This document shows positions 23,557 to 27,337 of a DNA stretch of 64,000 nt, piece after piece. Position 1 is the stretch's first letter. The number at the start of each line of letters is the position of its first letter. The translations under genes were made by a program, and so were the position numbers. The stretch lies in assembly GCF_900112605.1 (NCBI RefSeq), contig NZ_FOMJ01000004.1, positions 62,001 through 126,000 on the forward strand. The letters run 5' to 3'. This stretch comes from Thiohalospira halophila DSM 15071 (GTDB lineage: Bacteria; Pseudomonadota; Gammaproteobacteria; Thiohalospirales; Thiohalospiraceae). The notes below the pieces were generated by a model, which ran no database searches, had not been told where the DNA came from, and worked only from the letters and a program-made list of their open reading frames with translations.

Positions 23557-23637
23557 CGTTCGGGTCCCTCGGTTCGGGCCCGCCATTCTGGCACAGGTGG
23601 GCCGGGCGGCGGTATCGGGGGGAGCGCTTCTGTCGGG

Positions 23638-23760
23638 GCTCGGCTGCGGTGGCGGGCAGGGGTGGGCCAGGGATGCCGTGAATACATCCGTGTAGGCTTG
23701 CGCGCGGCGTCCCTGCCGCGCGACACCTTGGCCCACCCCTGCCCGCCACCGCAGCCGAGC
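23638..23760. repeat. Large nested palindrome, copy 2 (32-bp arms, 59-base core)
   Basis: Perfect 32-bp arms at 23638-23669 and 23729-23760 enclose a 59-base core (23670-23728). The core holds an 8-bp hairpin (23701-23708 with 23715-23722) and, next to it, GCCGTGAATACATCC. Its reverse complement lines up with the core of the palindrome at 19455-19562 over most of its length: hairpin with loop AGGGAC or AGGGAT, then AGCC, GGATGT, TTCACGGC. It lies between the divergent LOG-family and polA genes. Confidence 0.87.
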
Positions 23761-23846
23761 GGGGATCCCGGGCCGAGATGGCAACCCCCGGCCCGTCGGC
23801 GGTATCCTCGCCGGGGAATCCCTCGAGTCCACCATCCGGAGTCGCC

Positions 23847-26567
23847 ATGGCCGCTAAGCCCCTCGTCCTCGTGGACGGGTCGTCCTATCTCTATCGCGCC
23901 TTCCACGCCATGCCGGCGCTGACCAGCTCCGCCGGCGAGCCCACCGGGGCCACCTACGGGGTCATCAACATGCTCCGGCGGCTGCTGCGTGAGTACGAGC
24001 CCGAGCGGATGGCCGTGGTCTTCGATGCCCCCGGGAAGACCTTCCGGGACGACCTCTACGCCGACTACAAGGCCAACCGGCCGCCCATGCCCGATGAACT
24101 CTCCCGCCAGGTGGAGGCCATCCACCAGCTGGTGGACGCCCTGGGTCTGCCCCGGCTGGTGGAAGACGGCGTGGAGGCCGACGACGTCATCGCCACCCTG
24201 GCGCGGCGGGCCGCGGCCAACGGCACCGAGGTGCTGATCTCCACCGGGGACAAGGACCTGGCCCAGCTGGTGAATGACCACATCACCCTGGTCAATACCA
24301 TGAACGACACCGTCCTCGACCGCGAGGCGGTGCTGGAGAAGTTCGGCGTGCCGCCGGAGCGCATCGTCGACTATCTCGCCCTGGTGGGGGATACCTCCGA
24401 CAACATCCCCGGCGTGGAGAAGGTCGGCCCCAAGACGGCGGTGAAGTGGCTCAACGAGTACGGTGACCTGGACGGCGTCATCGCCGCCGCCCCGGAGATG
24501 AAGGGCAAGATCGGCGAGAACCTGCGCGACGCCCTGGAGCGGCTGCCGCGCAATCGCGAGCTGGTCACCGTCCGGGATGACGTGGCGCTCGACCGCGCTC
24601 CCGCCGACCTGGAGCGCGCCAGCCCCGATCCCGATGCCCTGGAGAGCTGGTATCGCCGCCTGGAGTTCCAGGGCTGGCTCTCCGACCTGCTGAGCGGGCG
24701 CGGTCCGGAAGCCGACGGCGACGGTGATCCGGCCGGGGAGCCGGAGTCCGGGGAGCGGGCGGCGACCGAGGTGGTGCGCGACCGCGAGGCGCTGGATGCC
24801 TGGGTGGAACGGCTGCGGACCGCCCGGGTGGTGACCCTGGATACCGAGACCACCAGCCTGGAGGTCATGCGCGCGGCGCTGGTGGGGATCGCGGTGGCCG
24901 ACGGCGACGGCGCCGCCTACATCCCGGTGGCCCACGCCGACCCGGGCCCCGAGGGCCAGCTGGATCGGGCGACCGTCCTGGACGCCCTGCGCCCGGTGCT
25001 CACCGACCCGGACCGACCCAAGCTGGGCCACAACCTCAAGTACGACCTCTCCATCCTCGCCCGCGCCGGGGTGGAGCTCGCCGGCGTCGATCACGACACC
25101 ATGCTGGAGTCCTACGTCCTGGACAGCACCGGCAGTCGCCACGACCTGGACACCCTGGCGCTGAAGCACCTGGGGCGGCGGACCACCTCCTTCGAGGCGG
25201 TCGCCGGCAAGGGGGCGAAGCAGGTCACCTTCGACCAGGTGCCGCTGGAGACCGCCGCCCCCTACGCCGCCGAGGATGTGGAGGTTACCCGCGACCTCCA
25301 CGCCCGCCTGTGGCCGGAGCTCCAGGGGGATAAGGGGCTGGCGGCCCTCTACCGCGACATCGAGATGCCGCTGGTTCCGGTGCTCGCCCGCATGGAGCGC
25401 CGGGGGGTGCGCATCGACCGCGACCTGCTGGGGACCATCTCCGCCGAGCTGGCCGAGCGCATGGGCGAGCTGGAGCGTGCCGCCCACGACGCCGCCGGCC
25501 AGTCCTTCAACCTCGCCTCGCCCAAGCAGATCCAGACCATCCTGTTCGAGGAGCAGGGCCTGCCGGTGAAGCAGCGCACCCCCAAGGGGCAGCCCTCCAC
25601 CGCCGAGGCCGTGCTCCAGGAGCTGGCCGACGACGGCTGGGAGCTGCCGCGGCTCATCCTGGAGCACCGCGGCTACGCCAAGCTCAAGTCCACCTACACC
25701 GACAAGCTGCCGGAGCTCATCAATCCGGAGACCGGGCGGATCCACACCTCCCTGCACCAGGCCGTGACCGCCACCGGCCGCCTCTCCTCCGCCGACCCCA
25801 ACCTGCAGAACATCCCGGTGCGCTCCGAGACCGGCAAGCGCATCCGCCAGGCCTTCATCGCCGCGGAGGGCTGCCGCCTGGTGGCCGCCGATTACTCCCA
25901 GATCGAGCTGCGGATCATGGCCCACCTCTCCGGGGACGAGGGGCTCAAGCGCGCCTTCGCCGCCGGCGAGGACATCCACCGCGCCACCGCCGCCGAGGTC
26001 TTCGACACCCCCCCCGACCAGGTGGGCGAGGACCAGCGCCGCGCCGCCAAGGCCATCAACTTCGGCCTCATCTACGGCATGTCTGCCTGGGGGCTGGCGC
26101 GCCAGCTGGGGATCGAGCGCGACGAGGCGCAGTCCTACGTGGATCGCTACTTCGAGCGCTACCCCGGCGTCCGGACCTACATGGACGAGACCCGCGAGCG
26201 GGCGCGCAGCCAGGGCTGGGTGGAGACCGTCTTCGGCCGCCGCCTGCACCTGCCGGAGATCCACGCCGGCAACGCCCAGCGCCGCCAGTACGCCGAGCGC
26301 ACCGCCATCAACGCCCCCATGCAGGGCACCGCCGCTGACATCATCAAGCGCGCCATGATCGAGGTGGAGGCGTGGCTGCAGGGGCCCGATGCTCCCGTGG
26401 CCCGGATGGTCCTCCAGGTCCACGACGAACTCATCCTGGAGGTGGCCGAGGGCGCCGAGTCGGCGCTCACCGACGGTCTGCGCGAGCGCATGACCGCCGC
26501 CGCCGACCTGGCCGTTCCGCTGGAGGTGGAGGTGGGCATCGGCGCCAACTGGGGCGAGGCGCACTGA
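23847..26567 (+). CDS. polA: DNA polymerase I
   Basis: Repair and Okazaki-fragment polymerase, 906 residues (E. coli 928). Order: 5' nuclease domain (LVLVDGSSYLYRAFHA; DAPGKTFRDDLYADYKANR), proofreading 3'-5' exonuclease with D332 and E334 in LDTETTSLE, then the polymerase domain with D682 in VAADYSQIELR and D860 in VLQVHDELILEV. The O-helix RRAAKAINFGLIYG is intact. All three activities should therefore work. ATG 23847 directly precedes the conserved start; an earlier in-frame codon lies next to the palindrome and was rejected. Confidence 0.98.
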   Translation: MAAKPLVLVDGSSYLYRAFHAMPALTSSAGEPTGATYGVINMLRRLLREYEPERMAVVFDAPGKTFRDDLYADYKANRPPMPDELSRQVEAIHQLVDALGLPRLVEDGVEADDVIATLARRAAANGTEVLISTGDKDLAQLVNDHITLVNTMNDTVLDREAVLEKFGVPPERIVDYLALVGDTSDNIPGVEKVGPKTAVKWLNEYGDLDGVIAAAPEMKGKIGENLRDALERLPRNRELVTVRDDVALDRAPADLERASPDPDALESWYRRLEFQGWLSDLLSGRGPEADGDGDPAGEPESGERAATEVVRDREALDAWVERLRTARVVTLDTETTSLEVMRAALVGIAVADGDGAAYIPVAHADPGPEGQLDRATVLDALRPVLTDPDRPKLGHNLKYDLSILARAGVELAGVDHDTMLESYVLDSTGSRHDLDTLALKHLGRRTTSFEAVAGKGAKQVTFDQVPLETAAPYAAEDVEVTRDLHARLWPELQGDKGLAALYRDIEMPLVPVLARMERRGVRIDRDLLGTISAELAERMGELERAAHDAAGQSFNLASPKQIQTILFEEQGLPVKQRTPKGQPSTAEAVLQELADDGWELPRLILEHRGYAKLKSTYTDKLPELINPETGRIHTSLHQAVTATGRLSSADPNLQNIPVRSETGKRIRQAFIAAEGCRLVAADYSQIELRIMAHLSGDEGLKRAFAAGEDIHRATAAEVFDTPPDQVGEDQRRAAKAINFGLIYGMSAWGLARQLGIERDEAQSYVDRYFERYPGVRTYMDETRERARSQGWVETVFGRRLHLPEIHAGNAQRRQYAERTAINAPMQGTAADIIKRAMIEVEAWLQGPDAPVARMVLQVHDELILEVAEGAESALTDGLRERMTAAADLAVPLEVEVGIGANWGEAH

Positions 26568-26586
26568 TTCGCGGGTCCGCGGAACT

Positions 26587-26710
26587 CCCGTCACCGGCGG
26601 TGGTCCCACCCTGCAAGGTGGCAAGCACCGATGACGGGAAGTCCTCCCCACCGCCCCTGCGGGCGGTCCTTACCCCGCCTTCCTCCTCCCCGGAAGGCGG
26701 GGTTCTTTTT
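26587..26710 (+). ncRNA. Candidate structured small RNA at the Spot 42/ErsA position
   Basis: The polA-engB gap is filled with strong secondary structure. An outer stem pairs 26587-26597 with 26628-26638 (one mismatch) around a small hairpin (26606-26610 with 26617-26621). A 7-bp hairpin follows (26650-26656 with 26661-26667), then an 11-bp terminator with a T run ending at 26710. The roughly 125-base size and location match Spot 42 of E. coli and ErsA of Pseudomonas, both encoded between polA and engB. I see no clear promoter, and sequence homology to those RNAs is not established. A stand-alone HEARO/omega-type RNA is an alternative. Confidence 0.45.
26673..26710 (+). terminator. Intrinsic terminator downstream of polA
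   Basis: 11-bp perfect stem, 26673-26683 with 26692-26702, loop of eight bases, then TTCTTTTT. The T run is on the + strand only, so it ends polA and/or the small RNA candidate rather than the convergent engB. Confidence 0.88.
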
Positions 26711-26719
26711 GTCCGGCCC

Positions 26720-27337
26720 TCAGCCGCCGGGGGCGCGATCCATGTCCAGGTCCAGCCACTCCCCCACCGTCGCCCGGGCCTCCTCCGCGCCCAGGCCGTG
26801 GGTGGCGGAGAAGGGCAGCGCCATGGTCTCCGGCCAGTCCGCCAGGACCCGCTCCATGGCGGCGCGGGCCTGGCCCTGCTTGCCGCGGCCGAGCTTGTCC
26901 GCCTTGTTCAGTAGCACCAGTACGGGGAGTTCGGCGCCGGCGGCCCAGTCCAGGAGCTGGCGCTCCTCATCGGCCAGGTCGCGGCGGATATCCATGACCA
27001 GGACCAGGCCGACGAGGGAGGCTCGCTCCGCGAGATAGCGGCCCAGGGTCTGGTTCCAGTGGGCCCGGAGCTTCTCCGGCACCTTGGCGTAGCCGTAGCC
27101 GGGGAGGTCGGCCAGGCGCCGTTCGGGGTCCCAGGCGAAGATGTTGATCTGCTGGGTCCGCCCCGGCGCCTTGGAGACCCGGGCGATATCCCGGCGACCG
27201 GTGAGGCGATTGAGGGCGCTGGACTTGCCGGCATTGGAGCGCCCGGCCACCACCACCTCGTGGCCCTCGTCGGGGGGAAGCTGGTTCAGGCGGTGGGCGC
27301 TGACCACGAAGTGGAGCGGCTGCGGTGGCTGACTCAT
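26720..27337 (-). CDS. ysxC: Ribosome biogenesis GTPase YsxC/EngB
   Basis: GTPase needed for 50S subunit assembly. The 205-residue product has P-loop GRSNAGKSS (residues 32-40), switch II DLPGYGYA and G4 LLNKADKL, all intact. ATG 27337 gives the normal N terminus; an in-frame start 123 bases upstream adds an unconserved tail. Convergent with polA, divergent from the cytochrome c4 gene, as in Pseudomonas. Confidence 0.96.
   Translation of the reverse strand: MSQPPQPLHFVVSAHRLNQLPPDEGHEVVVAGRSNAGKSSALNRLTGRRDIARVSKAPGRTQQINIFAWDPERRLADLPGYGYAKVPEKLRAHWNQTLGRYLAERASLVGLVLVMDIRRDLADEERQLLDWAAGAELPVLVLLNKADKLGRGKQGQARAAMERVLADWPETMALPFSATHGLGAEEARATVGEWLDLDMDRAPGG

Follow-up and report, generated by a model that had tools for sequence, protein, structure and literature searches.

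What occupies the gap between polA and engB in Thiohalospira halophila? In the stretch of 64,000 nucleotides analysed here (the window), the gene for DNA polymerase I (polA, 23847-26567, forward strand, stop codon at 26565-26567) converges on that for the engB/ysxC GTPase (26720-27337, reverse strand), leaving 152 bases between them. A c-type cytochrome gene comes next after engB. A sequence-only reading had placed a structured RNA between polA and engB, and the gene ends agree with this placement. The view that the gap is home to an unannotated, free-standing gene for a small RNA (sRNA), here a predicted one, is well supported by the results described below. On the other side of polA, a long inverted repeat with arms of about 35 bases (GGCTCGGCTGCGGTGGCGGGCAGGGGTGGGCC...) at 23632-23762 separates polA from the gene upstream.

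The predicted sRNA is about 96 nucleotides long (~26614-26710, forward strand), as judged from the promoter position, the terminator and a match to the Rfam model of ErsA (26608-26718). Its start was set 5-7 nucleotides past the -10 box and its end was placed in the T tract. The fold begins with a 5' hairpin (SL0, GGUG-GCAAG-CACC, 26617-26629, forward strand); small 5' hairpins are likewise placed in most relatives. A C-rich linker, AGUCCUCCCC (26640-26649, forward strand), is unpaired in the predicted fold and is presumed to be a target-binding site; in the sister genus it is conserved as the block AAGUCC(C)UCCCC. The 7-bp hairpin that follows (SL2, ACCGCCC-CUGC-GGGCGGU, 26650-26667, forward strand) is the one that had been noted from the sequence. 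Relatives have a hairpin at this position with compensatory changes, although in most of them, unlike in the window, it carries a C-rich loop. The last element is an intrinsic terminator (SL3, 26672-26710, forward strand), whose stem (26672-26703) has 12 bp rather than the 11 first counted, and whose T run was correctly recognised (tail UUCUUUUU, a U tract in the RNA). Its C-rich loop, UCCUCCCC at 26684-26691, is a presumed second binding site, and such a loop is also found in the third-genus loci L012 and L013, in ErsA and in others. SL3 is the sole full terminator of the region (0 expected in shuffles).

The interval 26587-26712 folds with -66.5 kcal/mol (z -5.2 compared with shuffles, 0/200 shuffles being as good). 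For the RNA part alone (26610-26711) z is -3.9, and this strength comes mostly from the terminator and the 7-bp hairpin. The earlier description of nested stems filling the gap is correct for the hairpins and the terminator but not for the 5' nested stems (26587-26638). These overlap a sigmaE-type promoter, using bases 26587-26609, which lie between and within the -35 and -10 boxes, and for this reason we have placed the RNA at ~26614-26710. No equivalent of the outer stem was seen in any relative examined. Transcription most likely starts near 26614, and the interval given earlier would comprise the promoter together with the RNA.

The putative sigmaE/AlgU-type promoter (26581-26608, forward strand) consists of a -35 box GGAACT (26581-26586), an N17 spacer and a -10 box TCCCA (26604-26608). 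The pattern GGAACYY-N15..17-TCNNA has this single match in the 64-kb window but, since 0.67 matches are expected by chance, the site is weak and not significant by itself. Its layout and place are identical in all same-family genomes read, and the promoter is about 100-fold enriched in related gaps and loci. The window -35 region reads GGAACTC, not GGAACTT. This is not odd since three of the four units of a tandem array discussed below (L158) also read GGAACTC; these three end in GGTCTGA. The genome has genes for both RpoE (307.7 bits) and Hfq (101 bits). The pattern GGAAYT-N16..17-TCCCA occurs four times in this genome, one occurrence being at the polA-engB gap and another (GGAATT-N16-TCCCA) 87 bases 5' of the rpoE match. 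The latter is only suggestive because the pattern was picked after viewing the region upstream of rpoE and a control pattern also gave four matches.

Same-family counterparts were located using the window EngB. At four sister-genus loci (L006, L007, L008 and L011) engB has beside it an RNA in which the block AAGUCCCUCCCC is joined by a hairpin and a terminator, and GGAACTT-N16-TCNNA lies just 5' of each RNA. A search with a pattern for the RNA only (AAGTCCCTCCCCRRG, from which the promoter is absent) retrieved six sister-genus copies, and GAACTT-N16-TCNNA is directly upstream of all six. Two of these six have been relocated with their promoter, one (L162) being flanked by a ubiD-like gene and the gene for an M48 peptidase, the other (L152) lying next to an antiporter gene. 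The unit thus takes its own promoter along when it moves and is more than a polA terminator. In a third genus (L012 and L013) the RNA is again located in the polA-engB gap, and the promoters, identified by eye, read GGAACCT-N16-TCACA and GGAACAA-N16-TCCCA, the latter sharing the window -10 box. Sister-genus stems show double changes at three positions with pairing preserved. Loss of the stems in relatives that keep both flanking genes would have spoken against the sequence-only reading; the stems are conserved.

Other repeats were encountered in these genomes. An imperfect palindrome of about 230 bases (CGTGTGGGTRAAATGGTAAATCATCCTTGACAGG ... reverse complement), MITE-like, is present in whole or in part near this locus in the sister genus, in the gaps of L008 and L009 and at the 3' end of L162. 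At L014 (G010:C220), on the engB side, a short tandem repeat with a unit of about 20 bases (GCACAAGTACCCATAGAACGG) is found where the gap was expected.

Across the Gammaproteobacteria, a PolA search provided 80 named loci, including 36 gaps with a convergent engB. The strict promoter pattern GAACTT-N15..17-TCNNA is present on the polA strand in 14 of these 36 gaps, compared with 0 on the other strand and 0.1 expected in shuffles. The gaps concerned include those of Methylothermaceae, Sedimenticola, Methylococcaceae, Porticoccaceae, Piscirickettsiaceae and Pseudomonas; that of Thiodiazotropha has a somewhat looser site. A typical RNA of the class has three hairpins (a small one at the 5' end, one with the loop UUCCUCCCU and one with a CCCC loop) and a terminator whose loop is often C-rich. 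Hairpin arms pair at 98-100% within species, a value obtained partly by construction because the arms were picked from folds, and at about 50% when swapped across species; the sequence change between species is unaffected by this choice. Unpaired C-rich blocks number 56 in 30 RNAs, which were selected by eye and hence with bias, compared with 20.3 in shuffles (maximum 31). In one gap (L074, Porticoccaceae) two successive promoter and RNA units occur, whose RNA sequences are clearly different.

MAFFT alignment of the widest set misplaced stem arms, and existing Rfam models were therefore used as independent probes instead of a covariance model of our own; an N-padded structural alignment was also broken up. 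At gathering scores, Rfam gave no match in the window and none in 20 relatives. With the ErsA model (RF01719), the best match in the 2.69-Mb genome is the polA-engB gap, with 30.9 bits (next best 21 bits). Its E-value is 4e-4 genome-wide and 5e-4 for the region, and the score is below the gathering score of 50 bits. The window RNA also shares the position of ErsA, in the polA-engB gap and on the strand of polA. It obtains 23.1 bits with the sX13 model (RF02232, threshold 50 bits) and does not have the three stem-loops with C-rich loops of that family, its C-rich parts being the terminator loop and the linker only. With anti-hemB (RF02837, threshold 49.5 bits) it obtains 21.3 bits. A search with the Spot 42 (RF00021, threshold 80 bits) and HEARO models had been proposed as a check: the former has no match in the window at E-values up to 10 and the latter does not match it. 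We have used 'polA-locus C-rich sRNA' as a working group, characterised by position, a sigmaE-type promoter, unpaired C-rich blocks and a terminator. Judged by its sequence, the window RNA has all of these. The best anti-hemB match in the window's genome (C4:52458, between fbp and gyrB) was rejected as generic, being a terminator without a promoter.

At low thresholds, the anti-hemB model matches polA-engB gaps of the class (L105 above gathering; 33.3 bits for the sister-genus L011), the ErsA model matches L040 and the sX13 model L036. The anti-hemB model was run over 369 class genomes. The raw count (202/369) is not taken as evidence because 4/14 control genomes also matched, and the 30 best loci were analysed. 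Twenty-three of these flank polA and/or engB. The strict promoter occurs at -50 to -61 in 12 of the 30, compared with 3 of 752 background windows, and this represents an independent test because the model contains no promoter information. In several genomes (G181, G093 and G243) a single RNA is matched by both the anti-hemB and sX13 models, and an sX13-like RNA (L182, 49.5 bits) adjoins polA and has a sigmaE-type promoter. At the true sX13 loci (L179-L181) no GAACTT-type promoter was found; TTATAG is present there instead, hinting at a possible promoter rewiring in the Xanthomonadaceae. The name anti-hemB presumably reflects a hemB neighbour, and a locus where the RNA is flanked by hemB and engB (L130) suggests how it may have arisen. 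Tandem units follow polA in two genomes (four in L158, G181:C33:9500-17500, and five in L157, G272:C3:214000-222000). Nearly all have their own sigmaE-type promoter and terminator and form a multicopy sibling array. Anti-hemB-like C-rich RNAs were also seen at other loci with AAACTT-type promoters (L126, L131 and L121); those of L126 and L131 adjoin ratA/smpB-like genes, and tandem copies occur in G160 and G271.

How does the window RNA compare with the known systems? ErsA of Pseudomonas occupies the same gap and strand (as in L095, L099 and L109), has a sigmaE/sigma22-type promoter and carries a CCUCCCC terminator loop. It is longer (about 130 compared with about 96 nucleotides) and differs in its 5' half. 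sX13 of the Xanthomonadaceae is always downstream of polA and its C-rich loops bind G-rich mRNA sites (PMC3771888), but it has three C-rich-loop hairpins and its true loci are without the GAACTT-type promoter. Anti-hemB of Burkholderia shares a C-rich hairpin and terminator and its model finds the polA-engB RNAs of the class, although it scores the window copy poorly. The window RNA would act in the manner of ErsA and is probably related to it by position and promoter. From the rank with the ErsA model, the same-family conservation, the promoter counts in the class and the anti-hemB loci we have assigned it to the polA-locus C-rich kind: on its sequence it is a new, diverged member of this kind and not Spot 42. 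The proposal of a syntenic sRNA has thus held up, supported by the conserved promoter and architecture, by the location of the relatives' RNAs in this same gap and by the rank of the gap with the ErsA model. Of the two RNAs for which the gap had been called home, the resemblance is to ErsA (and sX13) and not to Spot 42.

Other explanations must be weighed against this assignment. Instead of a separate RNA gene, the gap might simply hold a strong terminator that ends polA transcription and doubles as a buffer against engB; of the conserved elements, the strongest is, after all, an intrinsic terminator just past polA. We consider this improbable, since a sigmaE-type promoter is conserved upstream, the unit is retained at sites away from polA in two sister genomes (L162 and L152), tandem copies carry both promoter and terminator, and the counterparts in Pseudomonas and Xanthomonas are established sRNAs. 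It is also possible to imagine a longer RNA beginning at 26587 or earlier, or an sRNA cut from the 3' UTR of the polA mRNA, in which the nested 5' stem would be real. The good fit of the outer stem (CCCGUCA/UGACGGG) and the z of -5.2 given above for the whole interval speak for this, but the stem covers the conserved promoter boxes and is absent from the relatives read, which makes such an RNA improbable as well.

An orthologue of Spot 42 is hardly conceivable. Spot 42 of enterobacteria and vibrios is CRP-controlled, acts in carbon metabolism and is not C-rich. It shares the genomic position (true Spot 42 is present in this gap in L067 and L091), but its model does not match the window, and both the type of promoter and the C-rich single-stranded parts of the window RNA are ErsA-like.

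Our preferred reading, a gene for a trans-acting sRNA of the ErsA/sX13-like C-rich kind, driven by RpoE and acting on ribosome-binding sites, appears highly likely from the sequence. The promoter-like site, the structure, the conservation and the presence of rpoE and hfq can be read directly; transcription, RpoE dependence, targets and the direction of regulation are what we infer. Envelope stress would free RpoE (sigmaE/AlgU), and RpoE-polymerase would initiate at the promoter at 26581-26608 to give an RNA of about 96 nucleotides ending at the terminator. The unpaired UCCUCCCC stretches in the linker and terminator loop resemble an anti-Shine-Dalgarno sequence and might pair with GGGGAGGA-like ribosome-binding sites, resulting in less translation of selected mRNAs, perhaps with the involvement of Hfq. 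For sX13, repression occurs when the C-rich loops pair with G-rich sites close to start codons, and Hfq is not needed (PMC3771888). When 9-mer and 11-mer complements were sought 5' of ATG codons, the matches were mostly in-gene sites and included no convincing target. The probable role of the window RNA is to mask G-rich ribosome-binding sites when the envelope is under stress.

ErsA, sX13 and anti-hemB, three sRNAs so far described separately, appear to belong to a single family that is widespread and often driven by sigmaE. Among the papers searched, none names sX13 together with ErsA. The sequences lead us to think it fairly likely that the three form one ancient family, found in the Gammaproteobacteria (with the Burkholderiales counted among them) and originally under sigmaE control beside polA/engB, which has been amplified in tandem in some lineages (four and five copies), moved in others and, in Xanthomonas, rewired in its promoter, and of which the window RNA would be a compact, diverged branch. 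The sigmaE-type promoter is common to much of the class, while in the literature we have found it reported for ErsA only, which is strictly sigma22-dependent (PMC7565897). If this is right, many non-model bacteria would possess a predictable C-rich sRNA arm in their response to envelope stress, and the position of the sRNA, its start site and its seed sequences could be read from the genome.
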